Shown here: piece after piece, positions 22,682 to 44,704 of the stretch
Numbering within the stretch: position 1 is the first letter of the stretch
Layout of the letters: each line of letters begins with the position of its first letter
NCBI GenBank assembly: GCA_021815405.1
Contig: JAKAGV010000010.1
Location: forward strand, 62,001 to 126,000
Length of the DNA stretch: 64,000 nucleotides
From: Bacteroidota bacterium
Lineage (GTDB): Bacteria; Bacteroidota; Ignavibacteria; Ignavibacteriales; Ignavibacteriaceae
Direction: 5' to 3'
Program-made: the position numbers and the translations under genes
Notes under the pieces: generated by a model
The model's database searches: none
What the model saw: the letters and a program-made list of their open reading frames with translations, nothing else
Told to the model about the DNA's origin: nothing

Positions 22682-24139
22682 TTATTTAAATCCAAGCTCT
22701 TTGCACATCCTGTAATAGTTCGACGGTGCAATGCCAAGCTTCTCGGCTGCGCTTGAATCAGAGTTGGAAATACTTCTTACATAAGCAATATATTTCTTTC
22801 TAAATATTCTTTCCATCTCTTTTAATTGGAGAACCTGACCTTGATAAAGCTCTTCGAAGTTAGTTTCATCCTTCATTATCAAGTGGTTCCTCAATATCAT
22901 CGGGTCGCTTATGTCCTTTGCTTCAATCTTTCCATTACAATTCAGAATTAACCTTTGAACAACGTTTCTAAGTTCACGTACGTTGCCCGGCCATTTGTAA
23001 TTTAATAAAATTTCTTTGGCTTTATCATCCACTTCAGGAATATCGACTCCAAGATCGAGGCTAAAATAATTCAGGAAGTAATCAAACAAGAGAATTATAT
23101 CATTTCCCCTCTGCTTTAATGGAACAATATCGATCGGCACTACATTCAATCTATAATACAAATCTTCTCGAAAGCGGTTGTTGTTTACTTCATTTGCTAA
23201 GTTTTTATTTGTCGCCGCTATTATTCTAACATTAACAGACAACTTTTCAGTGCGTCCGATTTTTTCAATTTCACCATCCTGAATTACACGTAAAAGTTTT
23301 ACCTGTGCAGGCAATGGAAGCTCAGCAACTTCATCTAGAAAGATTGTTCCGTTGTTTGCAACTTCGAATAAGCCGGGCTTGGTACTATTCGCACCGGTAA
23401 ATGCGCCTTTCTGATAGCCGAAGAGTTCACTCTCAATAAGATCTGCAGGTATGCTTCCGCAATTTATTGGGACAAAGTTTTCATATTTCCTTTTACTCTT
23501 TAAGTGAATATTCCATGCAACAAGTTCCTTACCGGTTCCGGAAGGACCGCTGATTAGAATATTCGCGTCGCTCTTTGCATATCTATCAATTGATTCTTTT
23601 AGCTGCTGTATCGGCTTGGACTCGCCGATAATTTTTTTCGTTTCTAAAATATTAGCAATATTTTGACGAAGCTTCTTATCCGACTTCAGTTTATGCTTTT
23701 CAAGGTTTTTCTTTTCATAAGCATTAAAGATACTAAGGGTAAAATCAGTCGGCTGATAAATGTAGTCTTCAATATTTCCAGGATATTTTGTGCAGTACCA
23801 GAAAGCTCCCGACTTGATTAAGCTGCTTGCAAAATTATAATCGGTAATGTTGATAGTCATTTTGGTAATCACAATTATCTGAATGAAAGGATCGATTTCT
23901 TTTATTTTTGAAATTAATTCTTGTCCCTTAAGTCCTCCTGAAATCTGATAATCAAGAATTACCACATCGTACTTATCGGGTTCTTTTTCAACCAGTTCAA
24001 GTGCAGCCATTCCGTTAGAAACAGTATCAAGTACTTTTATTCTTGAATCATAAAAACTAATTGTTTTCTTTATTCTGTTGACATCGAAATCTTCATCTTC
24101 GATTAGAAGAATATTTATATGTGAATTACTTGAAATCAT
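22682..24139 (-). CDS. Sigma-54-dependent response regulator (NtrC type)
   Basis: The 485-residue protein has a receiver domain (about residues 8-125, phosphoacceptor Asp in VVILDYQISGG, with Thr in VITKM and Lys in YCTKYP), a linker, an AAA+ domain (about 165-400) with Walker A GPSGTGKE, the sigma-54 contact loop GAFTGA, Walker B TIFLDEVAELP, and a C-terminal Fis-type helix-turn-helix (SAAEKLGIAPSNYYRMCKEL). The intact GAFTGA loop means it should open promoters with RNA polymerase-sigma54. A GAGG ribosome site precedes the ATG. It lies 75 bases after the kinase gene in the same direction. I saw no convincing -24/-12 promoter in this window, so its targets are unknown. Confidence 0.93.
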   Translation of the reverse strand: MISSNSHINILLIEDEDFDVNRIKKTISFYDSRIKVLDTVSNGMAALELVEKEPDKYDVVILDYQISGGLKGQELISKIKEIDPFIQIIVITKMTINITDYNFASSLIKSGAFWYCTKYPGNIEDYIYQPTDFTLSIFNAYEKKNLEKHKLKSDKKLRQNIANILETKKIIGESKPIQQLKESIDRYAKSDANILISGPSGTGKELVAWNIHLKSKRKYENFVPINCGSIPADLIESELFGYQKGAFTGANSTKPGLFEVANNGTIFLDEVAELPLPAQVKLLRVIQDGEIEKIGRTEKLSVNVRIIAATNKNLANEVNNNRFREDLYYRLNVVPIDIVPLKQRGNDIILLFDYFLNYFSLDLGVDIPEVDDKAKEILLNYKWPGNVRELRNVVQRLILNCNGKIEAKDISDPMILRNHLIMKDETNFEELYQGQVLQLKEMERIFRKKYIAYVRSISNSDSSAAEKLGIAPSNYYRMCKELGFK

Positions 24140-24177
24140 AAATTTCCTCAGAATAAGTTTTTTATTACGCCATCAGT

Positions 24178-24195
24178 TTTGCCAATTCTGGCAAA
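24178..24195. promoter_or_regulatory. Palindrome TTTGCCA-ATTC-TGGCAAA between kinase and regulator genes
   Basis: Perfect 7-bp arms around 4 bases in the only sizeable gap of the sensor operon, about 40 bases before the response regulator start. It could be an operator, or an RNA hairpin that sets the ratio of kinase to regulator. No T-run follows it on the minus strand. Confidence 0.35.
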
Positions 24196-24214
24196 TGTAA
24201 AATATTTTTAATTC

Positions 24215-25696
24215 TTAATTTTTAATTGTTATAGTAAACATACATCCGTTGTTATCTAAATTTTCCACGTCAAGTTTCCAACCGCAACGGCAAACAGCCA
24301 TCTGGTAAGCTATGTAACAACCATAGCCGGAGTTAATATCCTTACTCAGCCTAGTGGATTGGTTTTCAAGAAATATTTTCTTAACTCCATATTCATCTTT
24401 TTCAAGCAGTTCTTTAACAACACCAACTCCGTTATCCGAAATTGTAATGTATGAAATATTTTTTCCTTTATCGTATTTTGTTTTAATTATTATCGTAATG
24501 AATCTTTTATTGCCATGGTCTATACTGTTCTGAATTAACGGCTCAAGTATTTCCCAAACAATAAACTCATTCACACAAACCTTCGGGATGGATTCATCAA
24601 GATATAATTTGAACTCAAACATGTCATTCTTGCTTGATATCCTCAAAAACACATTTTGGATTATGAACTTAATGACCTTGTTTATATCAGTATTGAACAT
24701 CGGGTTGACTATTGTATTTATTTCCTGATCATACCATTTCATATCGTAAATAATCCGGGAAATAAAATTCGAATATGTAATAACCCTGTCCTTTATATCT
24801 TCCAGGTTCCCTGGAGTTAAACGTCTTACATCATCTTTGATGAAGCCCATAATCTTTTCAGCTTTATGATGAGTATGATATATTCTCTTGGTGAACAACG
24901 ATTCCTTTTCGAATTTTATTTGCTTTTCAAGATTTTCTGCATGTTCTTCAAACAGTTTTTTCTGAGCCTCATTTCTTTCTTTAACAGCCTGGGATGAGAC
25001 AAGAAAGATTCCTATCAAACCTAAAAAAATCAAAGTAGAATAAACTAGTGATACTCTATCAAAATTAGCGCTAATTTCGTCGGTCAAAAATGTAAAGTCG
25101 GGAGTTATTTTTAAATACATTACTCCGAGGTATTCGCCGTTCGGCACAAATGGAACTAGGATATTAAATGTTTTTTTGTTAACCAGTGTACTGTATATTT
25201 CTTCGGAGGTTTTGAGTTTATGCTGAAGCGGAAGAAAAAATTTTAATGCTTCATTGTGAGTGCTCATATTAAGGTCGTATGGAGAAAGCTTGCCCTTAAT
25301 ATATTCATCAAGCTTCTGCCCGCTGTCTATTACATAGATTTTTTGATCCTTAACGAGTATAAGGCAGATATCATCAACAGCTCGCTGAATAAGCTGCTGT
25401 TTAAAAATAACATTGAATGAATAAACTATCTTTTCATCTTCCATGTTTGAAACTGATTTATTCAAAAACAGATTTTCAAACAACAGTTCCATGCTAGTAG
25501 ATGTTATAGTTGCCAGTCTTTCAGCAGAATATCTTTTGTACCAGTCCTGAGTTTCGGATAAGAAATCATTCAAAGATGTTTTTTGTACGAAGGCTAGAAC
25601 GATTTGGAACAATATAAGTATTGTGAAAAAAATTGTTATGTGCCGGATCTCGAACCGGTACTTTGAAATTTTATTCCGTAAATACTTTTTAAACAT
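24215..25696 (-). CDS. Membrane sensor histidine kinase with an atypical phosphoacceptor region
   Basis: The 493-residue protein has a transmembrane helix near residues 20-37, a periplasmic domain of about 175 residues, a second helix near 214-234, a coiled coil, and a C-terminal ATPase domain with N-box EPLIQNSIDHG, G1 ISDNGVGV and G2 SGYGCYIAYQM. The helical segment before the ATPase domain has no standard H-x-(E/D)-(T/N)-x-x-P box. The best candidates are the histidines in IYHTHHKAEK. Kinase activity is therefore likely but not certain. It is encoded 11 bases after the solute-binding protein gene and before the response regulator gene, so the periplasmic domain probably reads the ligand state of that binding protein. 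Confidence 0.85.
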   Translation of the reverse strand: MFKKYLRNKISKYRFEIRHITIFFTILILFQIVLAFVQKTSLNDFLSETQDWYKRYSAERLATITSTSMELLFENLFLNKSVSNMEDEKIVYSFNVIFKQQLIQRAVDDICLILVKDQKIYVIDSGQKLDEYIKGKLSPYDLNMSTHNEALKFFLPLQHKLKTSEEIYSTLVNKKTFNILVPFVPNGEYLGVMYLKITPDFTFLTDEISANFDRVSLVYSTLIFLGLIGIFLVSSQAVKERNEAQKKLFEEHAENLEKQIKFEKESLFTKRIYHTHHKAEKIMGFIKDDVRRLTPGNLEDIKDRVITYSNFISRIIYDMKWYDQEINTIVNPMFNTDINKVIKFIIQNVFLRISSKNDMFEFKLYLDESIPKVCVNEFIVWEILEPLIQNSIDHGNKRFITIIIKTKYDKGKNISYITISDNGVGVVKELLEKDEYGVKKIFLENQSTRLSKDINSGYGCYIAYQMAVCRCGWKLDVENLDNNGCMFTITIKN

Positions 25697-25707
25697 AAGC
25701 TAACATT

Positions 25708-27030
25708 TCATTGCAAGATTATTTTATCAACCTTGATGGCATTAGTTGCTTTTTCAAGAGCTGTTTGAACAGAAATCTTATCTTCTATTGCCTCGTTAAA
25801 ATAAAAAGACATAATTTTAGAGAACTTTGTGTATTCCGGATTTCCGGGTCTTGAAACTTCCGTAGCTAATAATTCTTTCCCTTTTTCAAGATCCGGATAT
25901 TCTTTTTGATAGGTAGAATCGGAATAGAATTTTTTAAGCACTGGGTAGAAGCCTGCTTTTAAAAAAAATGTTTTTTGAGATTCTTCACGAAGTAAAAATT
26001 TAACAAAATCTATTGCCTCCGGTTTCTTATCCGAAAACTTTGAAATCATCAAATCCCAGCCGCCTAAAATAGCAGCAGGCGCATCACTTGAGAAATGCGG
26101 CAGCGGCGCCATCTTCAAATGACTATTAAAGAACGGATATGAATGAGAATCCTCAAAATCTTTGTTATAGGTTTGCCAGCCTCTCAAAAAGATTCCGTTT
26201 CCCTTCATAAATTTTTCGTAGCTTATAGTCTCTGTATATTGTGTAACTCCACGCGGGCTGATCTTATATTTATTTACTAAATCAACTAGAAGCTGCAAAG
26301 CTCTGTGTGCTTGCGGAGTCTGGAAATTAAATCCTTCTTTCTGGAAATAATCCGGTTCGATGCTTAGTAATTGTTCAATGAAAAAGCAAACTAGTCCTTC
26401 ATAATCTGCACCCGGAAAAATAAAAAAAGTATTAGGCAAACCATTCTGTGATTTCAACTTTATGAATTCATCCCATGTAATGCCGTGTTGAATTTCGCTG
26501 ATTATCTTATTACTGTCTTTTAGTTTTTTAAGAATATCTTCCCGGTAATACATAACTCCCATAGCTATATCAAGAGGAACTGCAACGAGTTCTTTATTGT
26601 AGTAACAGGTGCTTAAAGATGGCGCAAAGAATTCATTCATTTCACTTGGAGAAAAATATTTATTAAGTGGTTCTGCCCACTTCGCAAATCTCTGTACCCA
26701 AATAATGTCAACAGCAAAAAGGTCTATACCGTCTCCGCGGCTTCTTAATGAGCGCGCAACAATCTCCTTTCTTTCATTAGTGCTGAAATCGTTATTTGGA
26801 AAATCAATCGGGATTACTTTTATCTTCCCTTTATGGATTTTATTGTATTCATCAATAAGGATTTTATGAGCGGGAGTTATTCTATCAGCAAAATAAACAT
26901 TCTTTACTTTATCTTCTGATGATTGATATTCAAAAAAATTTATAGCCAGGTATGTAACAGTCAATACGACTAGAAAAATAAAAGCCCAGGTCTGCTTAAA
27001 CTTTATTTGCATCTTATTTTTGAAATTCAT
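25708..27030 (-). CDS. Membrane-anchored extracellular solute-binding protein (family 1), probable sensor component
   Basis: The 440-residue protein has the fold signature of family 1 sugar-binding proteins: DGIDLFAVDIIWVQRFAKW, a central VPLDIAMGVMYYREDILKK, and LGGWDLMISKFSDKKPEAI near the C-terminus. The N-terminus has one hydrophobic helix (about residues 14-32) after a basic stretch. I see neither a lipobox Cys nor a clear AxA cleavage site, so it may stay anchored in the inner membrane facing the periplasm. No ABC permease or ATPase gene is adjacent. The next genes are a membrane kinase and a response regulator. Its job is therefore more likely ligand sensing than transport. The ligand would be an oligosaccharide, given the neighbours, but that is inference. 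Confidence 0.83.
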   Translation of the reverse strand: MNFKNKMQIKFKQTWAFIFLVVLTVTYLAINFFEYQSSEDKVKNVYFADRITPAHKILIDEYNKIHKGKIKVIPIDFPNNDFSTNERKEIVARSLRSRGDGIDLFAVDIIWVQRFAKWAEPLNKYFSPSEMNEFFAPSLSTCYYNKELVAVPLDIAMGVMYYREDILKKLKDSNKIISEIQHGITWDEFIKLKSQNGLPNTFFIFPGADYEGLVCFFIEQLLSIEPDYFQKEGFNFQTPQAHRALQLLVDLVNKYKISPRGVTQYTETISYEKFMKGNGIFLRGWQTYNKDFEDSHSYPFFNSHLKMAPLPHFSSDAPAAILGGWDLMISKFSDKKPEAIDFVKFLLREESQKTFFLKAGFYPVLKKFYSDSTYQKEYPDLEKGKELLATEVSRPGNPEYTKFSKIMSFYFNEAIEDKISVQTALEKATNAIKVDKIILQ

Positions 27031-27248: not shown

Positions 27249-28238
27249 TTAAAAAAACTTTTCGTATTCCGAAATTATTCTATTCAGCAATTCGTCTGTA
27301 TGTTTATTTATAACCTGCCGCTTCTTGTCTTCTTCAAACCAATCCAAAACTCTTTTAACTCCGTGCTTAAATGGAATTGTTGCTTTAAAGTCAGGTACAA
27401 AAGTTTTTATTTTTGTGTTATCAAAGATTACACTGTTTGATTTGTCGCCTGTTAACCCGCCTTCCAAAGATTTATCACACTTTACAATGAAGTCGGTGGG
27501 AATATGGATTATGTTAGCTTCAACTCCTACGGCATCGGCTAATGCTGTGTAGATTTGATTCCATGTCAGTACTTCATCCGTAGTTATATGAAAAGCATGC
27601 CCTATTGCCTGCTGATGCCCAAGCAAACCGACAAAGCCTTTAGCAAAATCATCAACGTGGGTATTTACCCAGAGAGAAGTTCCGTCACCGTGGACAATAA
27701 TTTTCTGCCCCTTCTTCATTCTATCTATGATGTTATAATCATTCCATCCGCCTAACGCAACAGGGATAACATTACCAAATGTAAGCGAAGGTCTAACAAT
27801 TGTTATCGGAAAATTTTCTTCCCGGTATGCGCGGTTTAATCTTTCTTCGCAGGCAATTTTGTCACGAGAATAATCCCAGTACGGATTGAAGAGCGGAGTT
27901 GATTCGGTAATAACCGGATGAGTTGGCGGCTTCTGATATGCTGAAGCAGAGCTGATAAAAATGTACTGCTTTGTTTTTCCCTTAAACAATTCAATATCTC
28001 TTTCGGCTTCCTGCTGCTTAAAAACAATCCAGTTTACAACTGCATCCCAGCGATGCCCTTTTAGTACAGATTCAACTTGTGCTTTATCGTTTATATCGGC
28101 TTTGATTTCATTCGCGCCTTCTATCTTAATGCCGGTTGTTCCTCTGTTTAACAAGAACAACTCTATTCCCCGCTGAATACAATGCTTGCTGACGGATGTA
28201 CTAATGTTTCCGGTTCCGCCTATAAATAAGACTTTCAT
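27249..28238 (-). CDS. NAD-dependent epimerase/dehydratase (extended SDR family)
   Basis: The 329-residue protein starts with a Rossmann motif, LFIGGTGNISTSVSK, and has the active-site elements FISSASAY and the YxxxK pair in YWDYSRDK. A substrate-side motif IVRPSLTFGN follows. Extended SDR enzymes epimerise or reduce nucleotide sugars. The substrate cannot be told. It lies 218 bases upstream of the solute-binding protein gene on the same strand but with its own GGTGAAG ribosome site, and probably runs as a separate unit. Confidence 0.8.
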   Translation of the reverse strand: MKVLFIGGTGNISTSVSKHCIQRGIELFLLNRGTTGIKIEGANEIKADINDKAQVESVLKGHRWDAVVNWIVFKQQEAERDIELFKGKTKQYIFISSASAYQKPPTHPVITESTPLFNPYWDYSRDKIACEERLNRAYREENFPITIVRPSLTFGNVIPVALGGWNDYNIIDRMKKGQKIIVHGDGTSLWVNTHVDDFAKGFVGLLGHQQAIGHAFHITTDEVLTWNQIYTALADAVGVEANIIHIPTDFIVKCDKSLEGGLTGDKSNSVIFDNTKIKTFVPDFKATIPFKHGVKRVLDWFEEDKKRQVINKHTDELLNRIISEYEKFF

Positions 28239-28428: not shown

Positions 28429-29094
28429 CTATTTACTATCGATAACTGTATACAGAAATGTAATTATATACCAACTGTTAATCGGGCGTCCATCTACTTT
28501 TGCAGGAATAAATTTTTGCTTATAAGCATACTGTAAGGATGCGGAATCAAGTATCGCCGACTTTGATGAATATTCAATTAAAGCCTTAGATACATCTCCA
28601 CGACTATTAACTAATAACTTTATTGTTACCTTACCTTCTGTTTTATTTACTGCTGCACCAAGAGGATATGGAGGTTCTGTATCAGTAATCATTTTCGCTT
28701 CCGAATAGGAATGAACTTTTTCCGACACTGGTATTTTTTCCTCGATTATTTTCGCATTATACTCAGTTCTTCTTAAATTATTTACTTTAAAAAGTACAAT
28801 CGAATTATTGTTAAATATCTTAAAGGAAATATTAGTTCCGGCGAGAATATTGTTTAAAGCATTTTTAATTGATACTGTATTAAAGCTGCATGAAACTTTT
28901 GTTTCATCGCTTAGTAGTTTGTCATTAAAAATAAAATTTAATCCTGACTTAGCTTGCAGTTCACTAATTACAGAGCGCAGAGGCAGATCTTTACAACTGA
29001 ATGATATTAAATCATTCACAACCGGCTGCGAAAAGGAAATAAGAGTTGCAGCAACAGTAATACATAAGATTTTCAAAGTAAGATTTAATAACAT
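28429..29094 (-). CDS. Free periplasmic protein with an STN domain fused to a TonB C-terminal domain
   Basis: The 221-residue protein has a signal peptide (about 1-24), then a secretin/TonB short N-terminal domain (about 28-105, with FSCKDLPLRSVISELQAKSG and INILAGTNISFKI-like core), a linker, and a TonB C-terminal domain (about 135-221, PYPLGAAVNKTEGKVTIKLL and ALIEYSSKSAILDSASLQYA). STN domains normally head TonB receptors or secretins, and TonB domains normally follow a membrane anchor and a proline-rich spacer. Here both are in one small exported protein with no anchor visible after cleavage. It lies downstream of FecR and a TonB-type lipoprotein gene, so envelope signalling is the likely role. 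Confidence 0.8.
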   Translation of the reverse strand: MLLNLTLKILCITVAATLISFSQPVVNDLISFSCKDLPLRSVISELQAKSGLNFIFNDKLLSDETKVSCSFNTVSIKNALNNILAGTNISFKIFNNNSIVLFKVNNLRRTEYNAKIIEEKIPVSEKVHSYSEAKMITDTEPPYPLGAAVNKTEGKVTIKLLVNSRGDVSKALIEYSSKSAILDSASLQYAYKQKFIPAKVDGRPINSWYIITFLYTVIDSK

Positions 29095-29168
29095 AATACT
29101 TGCTTAAATAAACTTACATAGCGCATACTATTAAATATGGGCTATGCATTATGATCTACCTGCGTTGT

Positions 29169-29305
29169 TAACTGAAGTTACGCAAAATGAATAAGTGGTT
29201 CATTTGTCATTCCGAACTTGTTTCGGAATCTTTATTTTTAAAATGTATTTATATGTTGATCCCGAAAGTTTTCGGGACAGCATGACAGTTATGTAACTTC
29301 AGTTA
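29169..29305. mobile_element. MITE-like element, family TAACTGAAG, copy 1
   Basis: The element is bounded by TAACTGAAGTTACGCAA and, inverted, a one-base variant ending ACTTCAGTTA. The centre holds GTCATTCCGAACTTGTTTCG-type words. The middle differs from the other two copies (36582-36709 and 49367-49497), with CCCGAAAGTTTTCGGGA replacing the usual second hairpin. It abuts the next element without a spacer. Confidence 0.65.
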
Positions 29306-29441
29306 TTAGTAACTCACGTTACGCACATGTCATGCTGAACTTGATTCAGCATCCCATAAATGCTGAAAAATGGGATTCCGAATCAAGTTCGGAATGACAA
29401 AGTAAATTAGATCCTTAATTGTGCGTAACGTAAGTTAGTAA
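29306..29441. mobile_element. MITE-like element, family CACGTTACGCACA, copy 1
   Basis: Imperfect terminal inverted repeats of about 22 bases (CTCACGTTACGCACA on the left, matched by TGTGCGTAACGTAAG on the right) enclose two hairpins: TGCTGAACTTGATTCAGCA, and ATTCCGAATCAAGTTCGGAA. Close copies lie at 34768-34901 and 36411-36543. It carries no open frame. Confidence 0.65.
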
Positions 29442-29459
29442 TAATCTTCAAAGTACGAA

Positions 29460-30287
29460 CTAAGAATTTATCTCCAGACTGCCGTCAAGTTCACCAGGAG
29501 CAATGCCTGGAAATTTTTCCTTAGCAAATTTTTCAAGCTTCCACAAAAGCATTTCCCTTGACTTTTGTCTATCGCTATCTAAACCTGGCGTTTTTTTAAT
29601 AAAGCGTATATCATGTTTAAGTGCGTTAAGCATCTGAGTTTTTACGGCTGCAAGATCTTCATAATCCGGGAAGCGCTGCATAAAATCATAATAGAGTAAA
29701 AAAGATAAAGGATAAACATCCCAATCTTTTTTCCATTCCGCTGAAGTAGTTGATAGCAGGACCTGTTCAATGGTGTTGTTAAAGTTCAGAATGTCGGTCA
29801 TGTTATGAACGAACTCACTGTCCCTAATCAAAATTAATTTTTGAATTCTCTTCCTTTCACTTGGCAGTGAGCCATTAATTTCATTAAAATAGCTCTGCAT
29901 ATCGTAGATGTACTGAAATGCAAGCTGGTTCTTATTGGACATATTAAACTTAATCTCCCAATTCAGCCGTGAACCAATTGGTCTGCCGTTACCCAAAGCA
30001 GGATTAAAAACTATATTCCAGCAGTAATTTTCAGCCGCACTATCAAGAACCTGGTTACCTGATGACTTAACCAAATCAACTTTCTTAACCTGCCCATCTT
30101 TATCAATATAAAGCATTAGCTTAGTAATGCCGGTAATAGAGTTTTCCTGGGCATGAGCAGGATAGAAAATTTTCGGCTGATACTTTACAGTTGGGGGCAC
30201 GTAATTTCCTTCCTCAATATTTTGTACATGTCCGCAACCGATATAGAAAAACAAACAAGCTATTGCTAGTACTATCATTCTTTTCAT
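29460..30287 (-). CDS. Lipoprotein with a TonB C-terminal-like domain
   Basis: The 275-residue product has a lipoprotein signal peptide with the lipobox Cys at about residue 18 (FFYIGCGHV). Residues about 35-115 form a TonB C-terminal-like domain (ITGITKLMLYIDKDGQVKKV and SSGNQVLDSAAENYCWNIVF). The remaining 150 residues are helical and unassigned. The gene starts 24 bases after FecR with an excellent GGAGG ribosome site, so it is co-translated with the anti-sigma factor. The pairing suggests it takes part in passing an envelope signal to FecR or shares its control. That role is inferred. Confidence 0.78.
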   Translation of the reverse strand: MKRMIVLAIACLFFYIGCGHVQNIEEGNYVPPTVKYQPKIFYPAHAQENSITGITKLMLYIDKDGQVKKVDLVKSSGNQVLDSAAENYCWNIVFNPALGNGRPIGSRLNWEIKFNMSNKNQLAFQYIYDMQSYFNEINGSLPSERKRIQKLILIRDSEFVHNMTDILNFNNTIEQVLLSTTSAEWKKDWDVYPLSFLLYYDFMQRFPDYEDLAAVKTQMLNALKHDIRFIKKTPGLDSDRQKSREMLLWKLEKFAKEKFPGIAPGELDGSLEINS

Positions 30288-30311
30288 GGCGAACCTCCGT
30301 TAATAAAATAA

Positions 30312-31334
30312 TTATTCCGAGCTAATTATGTAACTGTTATTTTGTTTTTCAAATTTCAGATCTTCAGCTAAACAAATCATTGCAAGAACACTGTCTGCGT
30401 TTGAACTTATAAATGTGCCGGTTAAAGTTTGATCATTCACATCTACCTTATTAGTTATAATTTTTATATGATAGAATCGTTCAAGCTCATTAAAGATTGC
30501 ACTTAATTTTGTCCTATCGAATTCAAGTTTTCCGTTTATCCATCCGGGTAAGAAGTTGAAACCTGCATTCTCTGCAACAGGAGCTTCGTTCTTAACAATC
30601 GTTCCCATCTGACCGCTTGTAAGCTTTACGCTCTTCAAATCGCTTTTATTATTTGACAGCTTAACCTTACCTTCTTTAACGAAAACTTTTGTAAGCTCAG
30701 TGCGACTGCAAACATCGAACTTAGTACCGAGTACGGTTACCTTTGCATTGCTTGTTTTTATTACAAACGGATGCCGTGCATCTTTTGCAACTGAGAAAAA
30801 TGCTTCTCCGTTCAACTTTACTTCACGGTTCTCTTTACCGAATGATTCAGGATATTCAAGCGTACTATTGTTATTAAGATTTACTAATGAGCCATCGGGG
30901 AGGGTGATGTTTTCGCGCTGGCTGTCTGCTGTTGTTATTGTCTTCATAACAGGAACGGAATTTATACGGGTTAACAATATTACAGCACTTATAAGAAAAG
31001 CAAGTACTACTGCGCCGCTAAGCGCCGGCTTTAATCCGGGTATTAAACTAAAACGGATGAACTGAAATATTTTTTCAATTGGAGTTTCAATTAAGCTGTT
31101 TTCACTTTCTGCAGAATTTATTTTTTCATTCAATCTTATCCATTCGGAATCAACTGACGGAAATTCAGGAAGGTTATTTGGTAATGTTGATTTCCAGATA
31201 GTTTCCAGCTTATTAAATTCTTTTCGATTGGCTTCGGATTCATTGAGCCATGAATTCAACAATTTTTTTTCGGATTCTTCAATATCTCCGGTAATAGATT
31301 TTATACAAATATCATAGAGCTGGTTTTTGTTCAT
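30312..31334 (-). CDS. FecR family anti-sigma factor
   Basis: A 340-residue single-pass inner membrane protein. The cytosolic N-terminal part (about 1-95) should hold an ECF sigma factor. A transmembrane helix lies near 103-122 (SGAVVLAFLISAVILLTRI). The periplasmic FecR domain (about 130-235) has ITLPDGSLVNLNNNSTLEYP and VLGTKFDV. The C-terminus (about 265-340) is an STN-like module with KLSAIFNELERFYHIKI. A sigma gene would normally lie directly upstream. Here the only candidate is at 36710-37243, in the right orientation but 5.4 kb away across the accessory segment. An AAGGAAAT ribosome site supports the start. Confidence 0.9.
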   Translation of the reverse strand: MNKNQLYDICIKSITGDIEESEKKLLNSWLNESEANRKEFNKLETIWKSTLPNNLPEFPSVDSEWIRLNEKINSAESENSLIETPIEKIFQFIRFSLIPGLKPALSGAVVLAFLISAVILLTRINSVPVMKTITTADSQRENITLPDGSLVNLNNNSTLEYPESFGKENREVKLNGEAFFSVAKDARHPFVIKTSNAKVTVLGTKFDVCSRTELTKVFVKEGKVKLSNNKSDLKSVKLTSGQMGTIVKNEAPVAENAGFNFLPGWINGKLEFDRTKLSAIFNELERFYHIKIITNKVDVNDQTLTGTFISSNADSVLAMICLAEDLKFEKQNNSYIISSE

Positions 31335-31530: not shown

Positions 31531-31806
31531 CTGTTTACTGGTTCTGCTACTCTCTTTGCTGTTGAAGCTTCCGTGTCTGTAGCTAAAGTTTCCGTGTGTG
31601 TGGTATCACTTTCCATATCTGCAGTTAGAGTAACTCTCATTGCAGTTAAAGCTTCCGCATCTGTAGCTGGAGTTTCCGTATGTGCAGCATCACTTTCCAC
31701 ATTTGTAGCTGAAGCTTCCGCAATCGCAGATAAGATTTCCGTGTGTGTGGGAACACCTTCCCACTTTGCAGCTAAAGCTTCCGTGTGAGCGGCTGCGGTT
31801 TCCGGG
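31531..31806. repeat. Degenerate 21-bp minisatellite, about 12 units
   Basis: Units resembling GCTTCCGTGTCTGTAGCTAA recur every 21-22 bases (examples at 31566, 31586, 31608, 31650, 31670). On the plus strand they encode heptads of the form xxxAxxS, and on the minus strand heptads of the form TExxATx. Both frames stay open across nearly the whole array, but neither has a good start codon and ribosome site. Together with the repeat just before it and about 220 AT-rich bases after it, this fills the gap between FecR and the restriction-modification gene. It may be a decayed low-complexity gene or a recombination hotspot. Confidence 0.6.
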
Positions 31807-32030
31807 TTAGAAGAAGAAATTACTCTAACAATATTTTATTTCCCTTTTTTGACAGCAAAGCTTTTTGATGGTATTGATGGGGTTTTTGCCTGTGAGGGAT
31901 GAGATTCTGCAAACATTGAACCCTTAACGGAGTTACCATTAAGATTGATTTCTCTCCGGCGGAGCGAAATGATTGTAGAAAAAATAAAATAAAAAGAATA
32001 ATCAGCGCTCCGTAGGTGTGCTATGGTTAT

Positions 32031-34767: not shown

Positions 34768-34901
34768 GAGTAATTCATGTTACGCACATGTCATTCTGAA
34801 CTTGATTCAGCATCCCCAAAGTGCTGAAAATTGAGATTCCGAATCAAGTTCGGAATGACAAAGTAAATTAGATCCTTAATTGTGCGTAACGTAAGTTTAT
34901 A
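34768..34901. mobile_element. MITE-like element, family CACGTTACGCACA, copy 2
   Basis: Same orientation and order of parts as 29306-29441: a TTACGCACATGTCATTCTGA start, the GATTCAGCA hairpin, ATTCCGAATCAAGTTCGGAA, the conserved AAATTAGATCCTTAATTGTG and the inverted end. Differences are point changes only, which suggests recent spread. Confidence 0.65.
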
Positions 34902-36410: not shown

Positions 36411-36543
36411 TTAATAACACACGTTACGCACATGTCATGCTGAACTTGATTCAGCATCCCAAAAATGTCGGGAAATGAGATTCCGAATCAAGTTCGGAAT
36501 GACAAAGTAAATTAGATCCTTAATTGTGCATAACGTAAGTTAA
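36411..36543. mobile_element. MITE-like element, family CACGTTACGCACA, copy 3
   Basis: Same structure and orientation as 29306-29441 and 34768-34901, with CACGTTACGCACATGTCATG at the left and the inverted TGTGCATAACGTAAG at the right. It is followed after 38 bases by an element of the TAACTGAAG family. Confidence 0.65.
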
Positions 36544-36581
36544 TCAGTAGAAGCTTCTTAGTTGATACGTAAAAATATTAT

Positions 36582-36709
36582 TAACTGAAGTTACGCAATT
36601 GTCATGCTGAACTTGTTTCAGCATCTAAAAACAGCTTAAAAATAAAGATTCCGAAACAAGTTCGGAATGACAAATGGATCATTTTATTCATTTTGCGTAA
36701 CTTCAGTTA
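36582..36709. mobile_element. MITE-like element, family TAACTGAAG, copy 2
   Basis: TAACTGAAGTTACGCAA at the left is exactly inverted at the right end (TTGCGTAACTTCAGTTA). Two internal hairpins are built from TGCTGAACTTGTTTCAGCA and ATTCCGAAACAAGTTCGGAA. The element ends on the base before the stop codon of the ECF sigma gene. It is the inverted orientation of the copy at 49367-49497. Confidence 0.68.
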
Positions 36710-37369: not shown

Positions 37370-38749
37370 TTATCTTTCGCTTTCAAGTCTACGGATACAA
37401 TTTATTAATCCTCTTGTGGTATGGTAATTACATTTCCAGATGGTAGCCTTAGGCATGTACCTTGCTTGCGGATCGGTATCGATGCTGTTCCAGTACCAGC
37501 CGCCGTATTTATGATCGATAAGATATTCTTTAATGTACTGCCATTGGCGGCAGAATTTATCATAGTAGTTGTGCTTATCATGCGGAAAAATCTGCGACAT
37601 CATGAGAAATGAATTAAGCGCTTCAATCTGGTTCCACCATTGCTTAGTAGTTTGAACAACCTTAACGCTGTCTTCTCCTTTAAATTGATAACCTCCATCG
37701 TAGATACCTCCATGTACATTATCCCAGCCATGAGCCAATGCAAAATCATCCATTGCTTTACCTACCTGAATTGTTTTGGTATCGTCTTTAATGCCTAATG
37801 CATCCGAAGCTTCAAGGAGCAGGTAAGCAGTTTCAACATTATGCCCGTAAGAAATTTTATCAAGCTCGATGTGTTTTTTCCAAACTTCCCTGCTTGAATC
37901 GCGAAAGGAAAGAGGTGTACAGTCCCGCTGCATGAATAAGGTCAGATACGGTTTACTTCCAATTACGGTATCCCTAATCAGATAAAATAATGAACTGAGT
38001 CTTTCCTTTACCAAGTTATTATGCCATACTTTATAAAGCTGAGTGAAAGCTTCCAGAATATGTATCATTGAGTTTTGATCTTTAGGCGGAGTGCCTATGA
38101 AACCGTTTTTATACGGAGTTCCGTTTCTCTTCATAAACTGGAAGTATCCGCCGTATTTGGGATCGTAGCTATGCCTTTCCATCCAGTAAAAAGTTTTTTG
38201 TGCAAGATGAAGAGCAGCAGTATCGCCGAATGCCTGATAATAAGCTGCTAATCCGTAAATGGCAAATGCATTGCCGTAAGCGTATTTCATAATTTTTCCG
38301 TCAGTACTTATAGGTTTGCCTTCACGGTCAACAAGATCAAAGAAGCCGCCGTATTTTTTGTCCCACATTTTATTTTTCAGAAACTCGAACCCGTGCTTTG
38401 CATATTTGAAGAATGGCTCTTTCTTCTTGTAGTACATTGAAGCATTTGCATTTGACCAGACATGACGTGCTTGAGTGACTATCATTTTATTCTGTTTGCC
38501 TTGAAGCTGCCATTTATAATTTATATCGCTGAAGTAGCCGCCGTCGACAGTATCAATACTTAAAGGATAGAACAAATCGAATTCACTTTTCAATGCAACT
38601 TTCAATTCAGCTATAATACTTTCCTTATTCATTTCATAAGGAGATGGCATTTCATCTAAGCCTTTGTTTACAGCAATAATAACAAAGGAAAAAATGATTA
38701 AGATGATGAAAATTATTCTATTTGAAATTTCAGAGTTTGAATTTTTCAT
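37370..38749 (-). CDS. AGE-family epimerase with an N-terminal membrane anchor (cellobiose/mannobiose 2-epimerase type)
   Basis: The family epimerises the reducing-end sugar of beta-disaccharides or N-acylglucosamine. The 459-residue protein has a hydrophobic helix near residues 12-28 (IIFIILIIFSFVIIAV), then an (alpha/alpha)6 barrel with MIVTQARHVW, WDKKYGGFFDLVDREG, YGNAFAIYGLAAYY, ISYGHNVETAYLLLEA and WKCNYHTTRGLINCIRR. A paralogue without the helix is at 59859-61274. The anchor implies action in the periplasm, which is unusual because these epimerases are normally cytosolic. GAGGAGA 7 bases upstream selects ATG 38749. The gene is transcribed alone, downstream of the T9SS protein terminator. 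Confidence 0.85.
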   Translation of the reverse strand: MKNSNSEISNRIIFIILIIFSFVIIAVNKGLDEMPSPYEMNKESIIAELKVALKSEFDLFYPLSIDTVDGGYFSDINYKWQLQGKQNKMIVTQARHVWSNANASMYYKKKEPFFKYAKHGFEFLKNKMWDKKYGGFFDLVDREGKPISTDGKIMKYAYGNAFAIYGLAAYYQAFGDTAALHLAQKTFYWMERHSYDPKYGGYFQFMKRNGTPYKNGFIGTPPKDQNSMIHILEAFTQLYKVWHNNLVKERLSSLFYLIRDTVIGSKPYLTLFMQRDCTPLSFRDSSREVWKKHIELDKISYGHNVETAYLLLEASDALGIKDDTKTIQVGKAMDDFALAHGWDNVHGGIYDGGYQFKGEDSVKVVQTTKQWWNQIEALNSFLMMSQIFPHDKHNYYDKFCRQWQYIKEYLIDHKYGGWYWNSIDTDPQARYMPKATIWKCNYHTTRGLINCIRRLESER

Positions 38750-38943
38750 AATAATTCTCCTCAATTCATTCAATATTTAATCAATGATTTTTTAATAAAC
38801 ACTTGAATAAGAATATTGAGATTTCTATGTCATTCATTCTAAAAAGATTAAGTTTATTTTTTCTAATAGCACAATATCTACAGGCGTTTTATATTTTCAG
38901 TTGTCTATCAGCCATCCACCAGCATCCAGCTTCTTTTATATTA

Positions 38944-39011: not shown

Positions 39012-41630
39012 TTATTTGAGCAGCATCATCTTCTTAACCATAGTAAAATCACCGGCTTCCAATCTGTAGAAATACACACCAGAAGCAAGAGAGTGTGCAT
39101 CGAACTGAATTGAATGTTCGCCTGCACTCATTATTCTGCTATTGATCAGAGTTGTAACCTGTTGACCTAGAATGTTGTAGACTATTAATTTCACATTTGA
39201 AGTCTTTGCAAGAGTGAAATTAATTTGAGTTGTTGGGTTGAACGGATTAGGATAATTCTGAGCCAGGTTATAACCATTGGGATGCTGACCGCCATTGCGC
39301 ACAGCAGAGACTGTCCTTTGAACGATCTGCAGCCAGTCTGCATTAATATTATTTCCCGAAATACCAATCGTATGTGTACCGGCAGAAGCAACATTGAACA
39401 AAGGTGAAACCATATCCAAGCCAGTTGAGTCGGTATTGCTCTTATATGATAAAGAAGCAACAGCAGAACCATCTAGATATACATTTCCAGTTTGAGCACC
39501 ATTTGTATTCTGATAGAAAATTCGGGCTATATAATTTCCTGGACTATTAAAATCTACATTAAATGTAGCAATTCCATTATTGCCAAGTTTAACGTACTTG
39601 AATCCTTGAGGAACCCATGTACCTTCACCTGCCGGAGTACAGCCTTCGTTAACAGCATCAGGCGGTATAAGATCGGCAACTACCGTAGAGGTTCCTGCTT
39701 GATAAAATTTAATTTCTTTCACACTTATAGGATTCCAGTTATATCCAAACGAAAGAGTATTTGCACCGGCTTTTAAAGTAAGAGGAACACTGTTAGAGCC
39801 GAGATCTGTTTTTGTGTATTTTACTGTATGCCATTGACCATCACCAAAACCTGACCATTTATTTGTGGGTTGTTCAGGACCGCTCCAAAATACAAACTGT
39901 CCCCATCCGAGTATATCGGTCAATGTACCACCATTAAGCAATATATCTGCCCCAACATTATTACCGGCTGTATTTAAGTTCCCAGTTATTTCCATATCAA
40001 CATCACCAGCTGTGGCTGCATTAAACGTCCAGGAGATTTTACCACCACCGGCTGTTGTATACCAGCATGATCCAGTAAAAGGAACAATTTCCGCACCGCT
40101 TGTTAAAGTACCATTTTCAGCTTGATCCTGCCATATTGGTGATTCGACAATTCTACCGCCAGGCATGTCCTCAATCTGTTTAATGTATTGAGCCTTGTTG
40201 TTTTCAAAAGTAGATTTTTGTGTCGGGAACCAATTGAGATCTCCGAGCGGTAAGCCGTCGGTACCAGCAGTTAACAAATTTTGGTCGGTATAAGTAAAGT
40301 TTTCCGGCAGCGGCCATGATGGTTCTGTCCACAAAGTATCTCCCGTAGCTCCATCGATTTCAAGATCATAGAAATATTCAGGCGGTCGCACTCCGGTAGA
40401 ATAATACTGATATCCTCGAGAAGCAGTAATATGATTATACATTGCGGTAATTTGTTTTTGATCATCCGGATTCATTGTGAAATTAGGATAAGCGCTTAAC
40501 CATGCAGTATCCTTAATAACCATTTGACCTCCCTTTAGAGGACTAAATGCAGTAAAGAATGAATCTGTTACCGCATTTATGTATGGCTGAACACGAACTG
40601 TATCGCCATATTTTTGTTTAAGGAACGGGTCAAGGAAAGCAGCAGCATTTGCAAAAAGAATACGCCTGCCTACATCAGTTCCATATTTAGACGGCATGGT
40701 ATTTATCGCAAACTGTCCGGTAGTGAAAGCTCTCGGATCCCTGCCGGGGGCAAATGTAGGTCCGTAGTCGCATAAGCCTTCGCCATGCCAGAATACGTTG
40801 ACAAGAAGTAAGTTCGTGAAGTAACCCTCTCTCCACCAACTGCCGGATGTTGAGTGCAAGCTTCTTCCGATATTTACCAAAGTATTATGGTTGAAACGGT
40901 AATACTTAGCAGCGCCGTTTTCGATTTGAATAGCTGCAAAGTTAACATTAAAGAAAGTGTTGTTCTCAATTACAACTGTATCTTGATCAGCCCACATTGA
41001 AATACCTCTTCCAGCCCATTGCTGTGTTGATGGTCTTTCAAGTAAATTACGGAACGTACAGTTTGTAATATACACATCGTTATTAGCACCGCCCTGCCAT
41101 GCAAGCATAGAGAAATTTGAACGCTCGAAGATGCACTTGTTCACATAAACGTGCAGGTTGTTTGCCTCAAATTCTATAGGCTGATAATAAGTCTGAACTC
41201 CCAAATCATCTGATCCTATTATGTAAAGATTGGCAAGAGTCAGATCTCCCGAAACTTGAAACATTTTTCCGGGACCGGCACCGGTATTTGCATCTACTAC
41301 CATTTGTATTACTGCCGGATGGTCGGCATGTGCAGTACCTGGTTCTTCGCCTACAATACGCAGCGCCCAGCCATTGTTTACTATGGTTTTGTTGTCCCAG
41401 TAATATCCCCCTTTCAGCAATTTGTAAACACGATTCAGGTTTGCACGAGCACCGCCTGCAACTGTATCTCCCATTACTACGTTGTACAAGGCATCCTGTA
41501 CTACATTGCCTTGTCCATCGTCCCAATGTACAACAAGAGTATCAGTTGCTTGAGCCAATAGCCTCGAAGTGAATCCGAAGCTCATAATAGCAATAAGGGC
41601 AGTCAAAATGAAAAAGTATTTGAACTTCAT
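39012..41630 (-). CDS. T9SS-secreted right-handed beta-helix protein with two carbohydrate-binding-like modules
   Basis: The 872-residue protein has a signal peptide (ending near RLLAQATD), a right-handed beta-helix of pectate-lyase type (about 30-330, with NNDVYITNCTFRNL and DTVVIENNTFFNVNFAAIQI), then two beta-sandwich modules of CBM35/CBM6 style (about 520-650 and 660-775, NGGTLTDILGWGQFVFWSG and GNYIARIFYQNTNGAQTGNV). The last 80 residues are a type A T9SS C-terminal domain (NYPNPFNPTTQINFTL, GVYFYRLEAGDF, MVKKMMLLK). It should be released or attached at the cell surface. The gene follows the TonB receptor by 98 bases with a GGAGGATT ribosome site, so receptor and surface enzyme form an operon. 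Catalytic residues could not be assigned, so lyase activity on pectin is inferred from fold and context. Confidence 0.86.
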   Translation of the reverse strand: MKFKYFFILTALIAIMSFGFTSRLLAQATDTLVVHWDDGQGNVVQDALYNVVMGDTVAGGARANLNRVYKLLKGGYYWDNKTIVNNGWALRIVGEEPGTAHADHPAVIQMVVDANTGAGPGKMFQVSGDLTLANLYIIGSDDLGVQTYYQPIEFEANNLHVYVNKCIFERSNFSMLAWQGGANNDVYITNCTFRNLLERPSTQQWAGRGISMWADQDTVVIENNTFFNVNFAAIQIENGAAKYYRFNHNTLVNIGRSLHSTSGSWWREGYFTNLLLVNVFWHGEGLCDYGPTFAPGRDPRAFTTGQFAINTMPSKYGTDVGRRILFANAAAFLDPFLKQKYGDTVRVQPYINAVTDSFFTAFSPLKGGQMVIKDTAWLSAYPNFTMNPDDQKQITAMYNHITASRGYQYYSTGVRPPEYFYDLEIDGATGDTLWTEPSWPLPENFTYTDQNLLTAGTDGLPLGDLNWFPTQKSTFENNKAQYIKQIEDMPGGRIVESPIWQDQAENGTLTSGAEIVPFTGSCWYTTAGGGKISWTFNAATAGDVDMEITGNLNTAGNNVGADILLNGGTLTDILGWGQFVFWSGPEQPTNKWSGFGDGQWHTVKYTKTDLGSNSVPLTLKAGANTLSFGYNWNPISVKEIKFYQAGTSTVVADLIPPDAVNEGCTPAGEGTWVPQGFKYVKLGNNGIATFNVDFNSPGNYIARIFYQNTNGAQTGNVYLDGSAVASLSYKSNTDSTGLDMVSPLFNVASAGTHTIGISGNNINADWLQIVQRTVSAVRNGGQHPNGYNLAQNYPNPFNPTTQINFTLAKTSNVKLIVYNILGQQVTTLINSRIMSAGEHSIQFDAHSLASGVYFYRLEAGDFTMVKKMMLLK

Positions 41631-41728: not shown

Positions 41729-44704
41729 TTAAAAATTGTATCTAAAACCAACATCCATGGTAAATCCATAATATTCTATATAACTCGGGTTATTCAATTC
41801 CGATCCCACATAGCTGTTATCAGGTCTGCTATTGAGATTATTAAAGTTTGCGAAGACCTGCAGATGTTCAAACAACTTCTGCTGCAATGATAAATCCCAT
41901 CTTCCATAAGAGCCTGTATAAGTGCTGAACCTAGTGCTAGGTATAACGCCTTCATAACCAATTGAAGTAAGCTTATCAGTCTGATATAAGTATGAGAGGC
42001 GTGCTGAGAATCCTCCAAGGTCGTATCCAATCGTAATATTAAAAATATGCGCCGGTTGATCAGGCATACGAGTTTTAACTTCTTTAGAAGCTAAGGAATA
42101 TTGACGGCGTGTACCAACAGTCTTAATTACCAGACTATCGTATTGCAGCATCATTTCGGAATAGATGTGTGTGTAATTTACGTTAAGTACAAGTCCGCTT
42201 AACACGGATGGCAAATACCAAAAATGAGTCTGCCACTCCAATTCAAAACCATAGTAATAAGCCGGATTAGGATTGTTCATATAGGTATTAACAGTTGGTG
42301 CAGAGCTTTGATACCAGCTTACAGGAATCTCTAAATTAGGATCGGGCTTAATTCCGCCTTTAAGCGGGAAGGTAGCAAAAAATATTAGATCTTTTACATT
42401 CTTGTAAAATCCACTTGCTGAAAAAAGTCCTATCTCGTTATTAAAAACTGAAACTGCGACATCATAGTTTGTGGATTGGGCTGGTCTCAAAGAATAATTA
42501 GCTGCCTGCATATAACTGTTATCACCGCTCAGATAAGATATGGGAGCGTATTCCAAAAATTGTGGGCGTGCAAGAGTTTCTGTTCTTGCCAACTTAACCT
42601 GAAGCCAATTTATCGGTTTGACAATCAAGTTTACCATTGGCAGCCAAAAAGCATTATTTCTAATTTTATTCAGATTTACAAATCCTGCAGGCGGCTGTTC
42701 CGGTGCTTGACCAGATTGAACTTGCTGATATCTCTGTCCGTTATAACTGGTGAACTCTCCTTCCCATCTAACACCCGGAATTAAAGTTGCCATTGTTCCA
42801 AAATTGAATTCACCCATCAGGTAACCAGCTTCATACCGCTCGAAACCAGAATAGTCGCTTCCATAATTCCCAATTGAATATGGAAGCCACAATCTTTTAT
42901 CCGCCGGGGCAGCAATTAATGCATCCATCATCTGATTCATCATGGGTTGATTTGGTATTAATCCGATTGGATAGTCACCATTTAAAAAATTAGATCTAGA
43001 ATAATTAGTAAGGAAAGGAGTGATTGACAAACCGCCATCCTGCTTAATAACAGAATCAATATTCCAGCTAGGATAAACCTGATTAAGATATGTGAAGACA
43101 ACATTTAGTGCATTACCGCCGTTGCCATACTGCAAACCACCGTAACCATATTGGCTTTGATCATTGCTCCTGTCTATCCATCTTAACTTTGCACCGGTTT
43201 TTATTTTTCCGCTTAATTGTTCAGTGAAGCTAAAAGGTATTTCAAAGTTTAATCTTGCTGCTGTGGTGTTTTCAATAAGCCTTGTACCGTAGCGGTACAT
43301 ATAAGCCATCCAGGTTATTTGAAGACTGTCATTCGTGCTGGCAGCAATATTTTGAGGAGACATTGTAGGATAATACAAGTCTGCGTTCAATGCTTGAGAT
43401 TCTTGACCGAATTGCCAGACACGATGATTAGGATCGTTAGTTGCTGTTCCTGTCCGGCTTACATTAGCATCGTAACGAATCCATCCGAAATCTTGTGTAA
43501 TGGCTAAAGAACTTGTATATACATTTGTAGTGGTTTTTTGCTGTTCCAATTGATAATAATGACGGTTTGTACTGTATGCTGCTGACGGAGTAAAAATCTG
43601 ATTGATATGAAATTCATTATCAGAATTTAATTGATTAAAAAATCCGTTAGCTGTTATCTTGCCGTTAGGTATTACATAATCCAACAGTAAGCTTGCACCT
43701 GCCCTTTTCCGATTTACTTTTTCTTCCCTTAAATTTAAAAAGCCAGTAACTATTGTTGCTTCAGTCCAACGGTTCCAGGTATCCTGAAATTTATCTGCAC
43801 TCCGGTCGTAATTATCAACATTGGCATTAATTATTATACCCAGCTTTTCATTTAAATATCTATTGCTTGCACTAACAGTGAAGTTATAGTTGTTGTAATA
43901 TTTTTGAAGTTCATTATAACCGCCTTGAAGTGACGCATTCAAATTAAATCCGGAAGGTGCTTCTTTAAGTTTTAAATCTACCGTTCCACCCAAAACATCT
44001 GCATCCATATCGGGAGTTACTACTTTTTTCAGAACAATTCCATCAAGCATATTCGAAGAGATAAGAGAAAGATCGACGCTTCTATCCTGGCTTCCTGTTG
44101 CGGGCAGCTCAACCCCATTTACTGAGATAAGGCTGTATTTTGGATCCAAACCTCTAATCTCAACTTTTGTTGCTTCACCGCCGTATCTTTGAATTGATAC
44201 ACCGGGTAAACGTCCGATTGATTCGGCTGCGTTTACATCCGGTAATTCTTTTATACGAGCTTTCGATACTACATTCTCAATAGTATTGGAAGATAACTGT
44301 TGGTTAATAGCCGAAAGCTGCCCTTCAGCCTGAGCGGTAATAACCACGGTTTGTCCTGTTAATGATTGAGGTTCAAGAAAAATATTCTGTTCGAGTGTTT
44401 CATTTTCCGAAACCGTCACCGAAATTGTAGTCGAAGAATATCCAATGTAAGATACAACCAGATCTACTTTTCCCGCCGGAATATTTTTAAGAATATATTT
44501 TCCCTCAAAATCAGTTGCGGCACCAAGGCTTGTTCCTTTTACAATTATATTTGCACCAATCAAGGCTTCTTTTGTTTCTTTGTCTGCAATTTTTCCTTTA
44601 ATCGCTCCCGTGCCTGCAGCTGTAACAACTTGCACAGCAGCCAGGAAAAATGCAACGACAAACAATATCAATTGTCTATCAATTTTTGTAAAGATGTAAT
44701 TCAT
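41729..44704 (-). CDS. TonB-dependent outer membrane receptor, second copy
   Basis: The 991-residue receptor has a signal peptide (about 1-30), a carboxypeptidase-like domain (about 32-115, GAIKGKIADKETKEALIGAN, IPAGKVDLVVSYIGY), a plug domain (about 140-260, VNAAESIGRLPGVSIQRYGG, EIRGLDPKYSLISVNGVELP) and a barrel ending MDVGFRYNF. The plug and barrel style is that of the TonB receptors seen with pectin and xylan genes, without SusD. No STN domain is present. AAGGAGAG precedes the ATG. The downstream partner is the T9SS beta-helix protein. Upstream lies a possible decayed gene and then the GH28-type gene. The probable cargo is pectin fragments. Confidence 0.92.
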   Translation of the reverse strand: MNYIFTKIDRQLILFVVAFFLAAVQVVTAAGTGAIKGKIADKETKEALIGANIIVKGTSLGAATDFEGKYILKNIPAGKVDLVVSYIGYSSTTISVTVSENETLEQNIFLEPQSLTGQTVVITAQAEGQLSAINQQLSSNTIENVVSKARIKELPDVNAAESIGRLPGVSIQRYGGEATKVEIRGLDPKYSLISVNGVELPATGSQDRSVDLSLISSNMLDGIVLKKVVTPDMDADVLGGTVDLKLKEAPSGFNLNASLQGGYNELQKYYNNYNFTVSASNRYLNEKLGIIINANVDNYDRSADKFQDTWNRWTEATIVTGFLNLREEKVNRKRAGASLLLDYVIPNGKITANGFFNQLNSDNEFHINQIFTPSAAYSTNRHYYQLEQQKTTTNVYTSSLAITQDFGWIRYDANVSRTGTATNDPNHRVWQFGQESQALNADLYYPTMSPQNIAASTNDSLQITWMAYMYRYGTRLIENTTAARLNFEIPFSFTEQLSGKIKTGAKLRWIDRSNDQSQYGYGGLQYGNGGNALNVVFTYLNQVYPSWNIDSVIKQDGGLSITPFLTNYSRSNFLNGDYPIGLIPNQPMMNQMMDALIAAPADKRLWLPYSIGNYGSDYSGFERYEAGYLMGEFNFGTMATLIPGVRWEGEFTSYNGQRYQQVQSGQAPEQPPAGFVNLNKIRNNAFWLPMVNLIVKPINWLQVKLARTETLARPQFLEYAPISYLSGDNSYMQAANYSLRPAQSTNYDVAVSVFNNEIGLFSASGFYKNVKDLIFFATFPLKGGIKPDPNLEIPVSWYQSSAPTVNTYMNNPNPAYYYGFELEWQTHFWYLPSVLSGLVLNVNYTHIYSEMMLQYDSLVIKTVGTRRQYSLASKEVKTRMPDQPAHIFNITIGYDLGGFSARLSYLYQTDKLTSIGYEGVIPSTRFSTYTGSYGRWDLSLQQKLFEHLQVFANFNNLNSRPDNSYVGSELNNPSYIEYYGFTMDVGFRYNF

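Follow-up and report, generated by a model that had tools for sequence, protein, structure and literature searches.

A free STN-TonB protein and a TonB_C lipoprotein beside FecR in an Ignavibacteriaceae bacterium: a candidate soluble adaptor for cell-surface signalling

Genes and domains at the locus

In cell-surface signalling as it is usually described, an STN domain borne by a TonB-dependent receptor touches the anti-sigma factor FecR. Here we describe a set of genes in which this domain is carried by a small free protein. The set lies in a stretch of 64,000 nucleotides (the window) of contig JAKAGV010000010.1, from a Bacteroidota bacterium of the family Ignavibacteriaceae (assembly GCA_021815405.1), and it comprises a gene for an extracytoplasmic function (ECF) sigma factor followed, at a distance, by the genes for a FecR-type anti-sigma factor, a lipoprotein with a TonB C-terminal domain (TonB_C), and a protein that fuses STN to another TonB_C, hereafter called STN-TonB (Table 1). 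An initial annotation of the window had described the last three genes, and their coordinates on the minus strand were confirmed; the ECF gene was absent from its account.

The anti-sigma factor contains the FecR domain (PF04773, residues 132–225, E 3.7e-22) and the STN-like family FecR_C (PF16344, residues 269–337, E 2.6e-13), both above the cut-off, and its profile matches PupR (6ovk_R, 1.3e-15) as well as a Bacteroidota anti-sigma protein (4m0n, 1.1e-42). The STN-like module at the end of FecR, already recognized in the initial annotation, is a feature of a known family. The ECF protein scores above the cut-off of TIGR02937 and just below that of TIGR02985, and judging from the gene order in related genomes it is probably the partner of this FecR.

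In STN-TonB, Pfam detects STN at residues 52–103 (E 2.8e-13, 49.8 bits against a cut-off of 28.4) and TonB_C at residues 140–215 (E 7e-13, 49.3 bits against 24.6). An AlphaFold model obtained with seven aligned members (mean predicted local distance difference test score 81.3, predicted template modelling score 0.48) shows two folded domains, whose mutual placement is unreliable according to the latter score. The modelled STN fold spans approximately residues 27–108; the domain had been placed at residues 28–105, and both the hidden Markov model matches and the folds agree with the proposed fusion of STN and TonB_C. The best fold match of residues 28–108 is chain B of a solved PupR complex (6ovm_B, Z 11.8, root-mean-square deviation 2.1 over 80 residues), which is presumably PupB. 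The signalling domains of FpvA and FecA also match this region (Z 11.5), as do the C-terminal part of a Bacteroidota anti-sigma protein (4m0h, Z 10.7) and secretin domains (Z 8–9.7). Residues 126–218 match the TonB C-terminus 9dc4_T (Z 11.4); likewise, the modelled TonB_C folds of both proteins match TonB structures solved with FoxA, BtuB and FhuA, and every one of the seven aligned STN-TonB members retains the complete fold. Inspection of the alignment by eye revealed a cleavable-type signal sequence and a short linker, and neither an N-terminal membrane anchor nor a long proline-rich spacer. Because a small residue followed by Gln closes the signal sequence in the seven members, cleavage and release of a soluble protein are plausible. 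This is in contrast with ordinary TonBs of the class (L170 and L171; L and G numbers are our handles for loci and genomes), which have an N-terminal hydrophobic anchor, a proline-rich spacer and, by eye, ExbD-like neighbours.

The second TonB-like domain that had been ascribed to the lipoprotein corresponds to TonB_C at residues 40–115 (E 4.8e-13, above the cut-off), and the lipobox residue Cys18 is invariant in the nine aligned lipoproteins. In the model the TonB_C fold is followed by helices; when this helical domain was compared with known folds only generic helical matches were obtained (best Z 7.5), which gives no evidence of a new fold.

Table 1. Features of the locus, with positions in the window
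Feature	Position	Strand	Parts or remarks	Evidence
NAD-dependent sugar epimerase-like gene	27249..28238	-	downstream of STN-TonB	Pfam
STN-TonB adaptor (candidate), 221 residues	28429..29094	-	signal peptide; STN ~28771-29016; short linker; TonB_C 28450-28677	Pfam; model and fold matches; 9 full-length relatives including its own
Palindromic REP-like (repetitive extragenic palindrome) repeats	29203..29444	.	between the lipoprotein and STN-TonB genes	inverted repeats
Lipoprotein, 275 residues	29460..30287	-	lipobox Cys18; TonB_C 29943-30170; conserved helical C-terminal domain ~29514-29933	Pfam; 9-member alignment; model
FecR-type anti-sigma factor, 340 residues	30312..31334	-	FecR domain 30660-30941; STN-like FecR_C 30324-30530; hydrophobic stretch ~ residues 104-123	Pfam; PupR match; sole FecR match in the genome
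Single-chain restriction-modification gene, 841 residues	32141..34666	-	N6-methylase and BsuBI/PstI-type nuclease	Pfam
Open reading frame of 251 residues	35324..36079	-	same inserted stretch	no Pfam match; NCBIfam PQLLE far below cut-off
ECF sigma factor, 177 residues	36710..37243	-		Pfam; orthologues upstream of FecR in other cassettes
GlcNAc-2-epimerase-like gene	37370-38773	-	linked in other loci	Pfam
Beta-helix secreted protein gene	39012-41630	-	linked in other loci	Pfam
TonB-dependent receptor without STN	41729..44704	-	CarboxypepD_reg and Plug	Pfam

Conservation of the cassette and its place among FecR operons

A profile search of 164 genomes of the order gave 12 that passed the threshold, nine of them with a full-length STN-TonB. 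Two others (G153 and G230) matched with TonB_C only and were dropped, and the match in G700, which covers model positions 96–217 at a contig end, was not counted as full-length. In the nine genomes with the full-length protein, the genes for FecR, the lipoprotein and STN-TonB are immediate neighbours in that order on the same strand, and an ECF gene lies upstream in the eight cassettes whose contig extends far enough. This gene is directly upstream in five cassettes; in the other three the spacing is 649 bp (L092), 5.4 kb (the window) and 7.5 kb (L124). A gap of 3.9 kb likewise opens the ECF-FecR junction in L168. In G697, which belongs to the same genus as the window genome, 3.9 kb separate an ECF gene from a fragment of FecR; their contig bears the window-type epimerase as well (96% over 114 residues), and the lipoprotein is on a different contig. 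The junction has thus been opened more than once, with FecR, the lipoprotein and STN-TonB staying together.

Judging by their named relatives (Melioribacter, Melioribacteraceae, and metagenome-assembled genomes of Ignavibacteria and Chlorobiota; Melioribacter belongs to the Ignavibacteriales, Ignavibacteriota), all cassette genomes fall in one order, the Ignavibacteriales. Among the matches listed for 391 genomes of the class and 395 of the phylum, no full-length STN-TonB was found outside this order, a search that a distant VreA-like relative could escape; the full-length matches listed came from seven genomes in the class search and three in the phylum search, own included. In plasmids, tblastn gave four records with the TonB_C part only. 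A class match outside the order (G034, query positions 49–212) and a neighbour match in G014 turned out to be ordinary TonBs with no STN match, and two apparent small STN proteins (G144 and G192) were rejected, as they match receptor profiles too and reach the end of their contig.

The window genome (G000; 4.97 Mb in 31 contigs, completeness 99.98) contains seven TonB_C matches and 35 receptor plug matches; in profile searches it has one FecR match and one STN match, both in the window. The Pfam STN model, by which the domain is present in at least 36 of 245 class genomes, overlooks several of the STN domains present in the class, which makes its count a lower bound, and for this reason a wider STN profile was built. 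With this profile (E ≤ 0.05) the sole STN in the window genome is that of STN-TonB, and no receptor carries one; likewise, no second STN was detected among the open reading frames (ORFs) of at least 60 residues in the window, in agreement with the initial statement that its TonB receptors lack the domain. Among ten genomes searched with the wider profile, this one included, the STN of the cassette is likewise the sole one in G329, G058 and G754, five genomes have more than one, and in G700 none was found. In L169 (positions 2330–2794), an ORF of 154 residues matches STN weakly and matches neither receptor profiles nor TonB_C; its genome, G283, also has the cassette.

In this class an ECF-FecR pair commonly precedes an STN-bearing receptor. 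The 45 FecRs that were collected consist of the nine cassette members and 36 others, the latter being a biased sample formed by the 22 strongest FecR matches, eight hand-picked regions and six loci from the STN search (L002, L003, L007, L008, L010 and L022). In this sample, 33 of the 36 anti-sigma factors precede an STN-bearing ORF, a label that denotes an STN match in the following ORF and does not require a whole receptor. Twenty-eight were scored at once, and five of the eight that seemingly had no STN partner were recovered with the wider profile (L131 and L132, then L056, L057 and L035). The remaining three correspond to L055, with a weak STN match (E 0.028), L054, with no profile match, and L047, at a contig end. 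In six further loci (L162–L167) an STN-bearing receptor frame always follows FecR, one gene further in L163 and L164, where an ORF of 336–339 residues with a LacI-like start (by eye) stands between them. The operons L129, L130, L133, L134 and L137 likewise show an ECF gene (none matched in L129), FecR and an STN-bearing next gene; however, in these operons the next gene is a receptor of approximately 990–1040 residues. In the FecR tree the cassette members form one group (bootstrap 85; Shimodaira-Hasegawa-like approximate likelihood ratio test 76, below the starred level), and the main STN-receptor group, with 31 members, stands apart from it. Since most of the other FecRs collected precede an STN-bearing ORF, STN-TonB occupies the place of the transducer and carries its domain.

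Neighbouring genes and comparison with known systems

The module stands next to genes related to glycan use. The relatives of the STN-less receptor of Table 1 found near the cassettes L124 (64%) and L095 (51%) contrast with the values for four other receptors (31–34%), and this receptor is a candidate to be read by the adaptor. Copies of the NAD-dependent epimerase, 62–74% identical, accompany a cassette or a lone lipoprotein in L092, L096, L156, L157 and L158; among the cassette loci, it is near L092 and L096. In L156, L157, L158 and L159 copies of the TonB_C lipoprotein are found with neither FecR nor STN-TonB alongside, and the first three of these are near that same epimerase. In three genomes with no FecR at E ≤ 1e-10 (G241, G376 and G749) the lipoprotein copies lie near a window-type sugar epimerase, and in G241 and G749 near relatives of the receptor and of the beta-helix protein as well; because of this, the lipoprotein is as much a member of a glycan-use locus as of the FecR module, if not more. 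A row of genes for a solute-binding protein, a histidine kinase-like protein and a sigma-54 response regulator (22682-27030) is likely a sugar-sensing system beside the glycan genes.

The restriction-modification gene and the ORF of 251 residues lie between the ECF gene and FecR but are outside the module; no relative of either was found in 17 comparison loci. The core of the REP-like palindrome has seven copies in the window (up to three mismatches) versus none expected, at 29205-29399, 34789-34860, 36479-36672 and 49406-49431, and several of them adjoin the inserted restriction-modification stretch. Between this stretch and FecR (31547-31824) there are degenerate repeats at multiples of 21 nucleotides; Tandem Repeats Finder detected no tandem repeats upstream of FecR.

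The architecture of STN-TonB is itself known from VreA, a component of the PUMA3 system of Pseudomonas aeruginosa that was absent from the initial annotation. According to PMC2729926, VreA is exported, barrel-less and mostly soluble, with STN at residues 29–115 and a TolA/TonB-like C-terminal domain at residues 133–238 that was modelled on TolA at 9.3% identity; its gene stands with those of an ECF factor and a FecR-type regulator, in the order vreA-vreI-vreR, and TpsA/TpsB and ExbBD genes are reported as linked to all PUMA3 homologues. Its authors proposed that STN meets VreR and that the C-terminus meets an outer-membrane partner, and in 2009 they called this architecture unique (PMC2729926). 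Compared by layout, the locus described here has the same exported, barrel-less STN and TolA/TonB-like protein beside an ECF/FecR pair. However, the gene order is ECF-FecR-lipoprotein-STN-TonB, TonB_C scores clearly in Pfam where the domain of VreA was modelled on TolA, an extra conserved TonB_C lipoprotein is present, and the neighbours seem to be glycan genes instead of TpsA and ExbBD. TpsA, TpsB and ExbBD had no Pfam match among the window proteins scanned, a subset of the window ORFs. By analogy the module may work like PUMA3, and it is not a proven member of that group, given that the gene order differs and the neighbours seem different.

The systems FecA-FecR-FecI, FoxA-FoxR-FoxI and PupB-PupR also share with this module the ECF factor, a FecR-type regulator that ends in an STN-like module, and a partner whose STN has the same fold; the difference is that their STN sits on a TonB-dependent receptor and not on a soluble TonB_C protein. 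The start of the model for MxcH-type receptors (NF038079) aligns with TonB_C in both proteins, at 41.8 bits for the lipoprotein and 31.8 bits for STN-TonB, and this alignment suggests that TonB_C at the N-terminus of a receptor exists; nevertheless, in that family the domain is fused to the receptor, and the scores obtained here are far below its cut-off of 925. In the open-access literature no paper was found on FecR with TonB in Ignavibacteria, nor on STN with TonB_C and FecR, which is weak evidence, and PMC9249621 contains no occurrence of VreA or STN. What is new here is the phylum and lineage, the TonB_C lipoprotein, a genome with a single STN and 35 receptor plugs, and the link with a glycan locus.

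A possible mechanism and its alternatives

On balance we lean towards an ECF/FecR signalling module in which a soluble periplasmic adaptor would read STN-less receptors, act as the transducer and release the ECF factor for glycan-use genes. From the domains, the predicted folds, the conserved gene order and the single STN of the genome we infer the following contacts, signal direction and target genes. The STN of STN-TonB would bind the STN-like end of FecR, as the signalling domain of PupB binds PupR, and the TonB_C of STN-TonB and that of the lipoprotein would dock on the TonB boxes, which are periplasmic segments, of TonB-dependent receptors that lack STN, with the receptor of Table 1 as the likeliest first target. 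Receptor occupancy would alter the load of the adaptor on FecR, which would become exposed to, or shielded from, proteolysis, and this step would release the ECF factor and allow transcription of the glycan-use genes. A wider possibility, which we regard as rather unlikely, is that one ECF/FecR pair serves many STN-less receptors, with the lipoprotein and STN-TonB forming a relay of two TonB_C domains that would read engaged TonB boxes non-covalently. The idea of a diffusible STN-TonB protein that signals to FecR had been put forward in the initial annotation, and it gains from the conserved gene run, the position of the transducer, the plausible cleavage and the precedent of VreA; nothing was found for the envelope-stress input that was also suggested, so that this earlier interpretation is partly supported.

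Several observations weigh against the adaptor module. In the window, 5.4 kb lie between the ECF gene and FecR. Only 24 bp lie between FecR and the lipoprotein gene, and these two may be co-transcribed as initially proposed; the STN-TonB gene follows after 365 bp, behind palindromic repeats and a terminator-like hairpin. Together with the open junctions of L092, L124 and L168, these interruptions could mean that the module is decaying in the window genome, split by insertions, and may not work as a unit. We consider this very unlikely, given that the four frames are intact and score like other members, and that an ECF/FecR pair can work without adjacency. A motif search upstream of eight ECF genes did not find a shared ECF promoter: for motif widths of 24 and 32 the top score fell inside the range of six shuffled sets, and at width 28 it exceeded all six, but with 25 starts versus 8 in the controls and with sites unlike a promoter, for which it was treated as null. 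In addition, none of the tested glycan-locus genes is linked to L091, L093, L094 or L125 in the stretch examined, and, since deletion of vreA left the PUMA3 output unchanged under phosphate starvation (PMC4971064), a VreA-like protein may by analogy not be the main input. Lastly, the lipoprotein need not serve FecR, because the three genomes mentioned above, all of one genus, have it with no FecR at E ≤ 1e-10.

The association of this lipoprotein with the receptor and epimerase locus in those genomes also favours a role of both TonB_C proteins in transport, as auxiliary TonB-like proteins of the linked receptor, with FecR only controlling their expression. Such a role seems improbable to us, as STN-TonB looks secreted and has no proline-rich spacer, unlike the ordinary TonBs of L170 and L171, and it would leave unexplained why this STN domain occurs only next to FecR. 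It could also be proposed that STN-TonB is a constitutive chaperone or brake that binds FecR and guards it against proteolysis, in which TonB_C reads no receptor and only anchors the protein to the lipoprotein, peptidoglycan or TonB, and the signal is whatever titrates or degrades it. This proposal draws on FoxA, whose signalling domain, according to PMC11637429, shields FoxR from proteolysis until induction and seems to be released by cleavage; STN-TonB would be such a domain encoded free. Nevertheless, we find it doubtful, given that a pure shield needs neither the TonB_C fold kept in all aligned members nor a second TonB_C protein conserved alongside.

If the reading of many receptors by a shared adaptor were true, receptor activity would be sensed without one dedicated transducer per signal, and signalling of this kind would gain a new component in the conserved helical domain of the lipoprotein. 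The only detected STN of this genome is on a TonB-like adaptor and the same gene run is found in eight relatives, which represents a natural separation of transport from signalling; the module is a clean test case for the recent proposal, made in PMC11637429, that the signalling domain works detached from the receptor. It also places the layout of VreA in a distant phylum, beside plant-glycan genes, and suggests that nutrient uptake may be sensed in this bacterium by way of a free adaptor rather than a dedicated signalling receptor.

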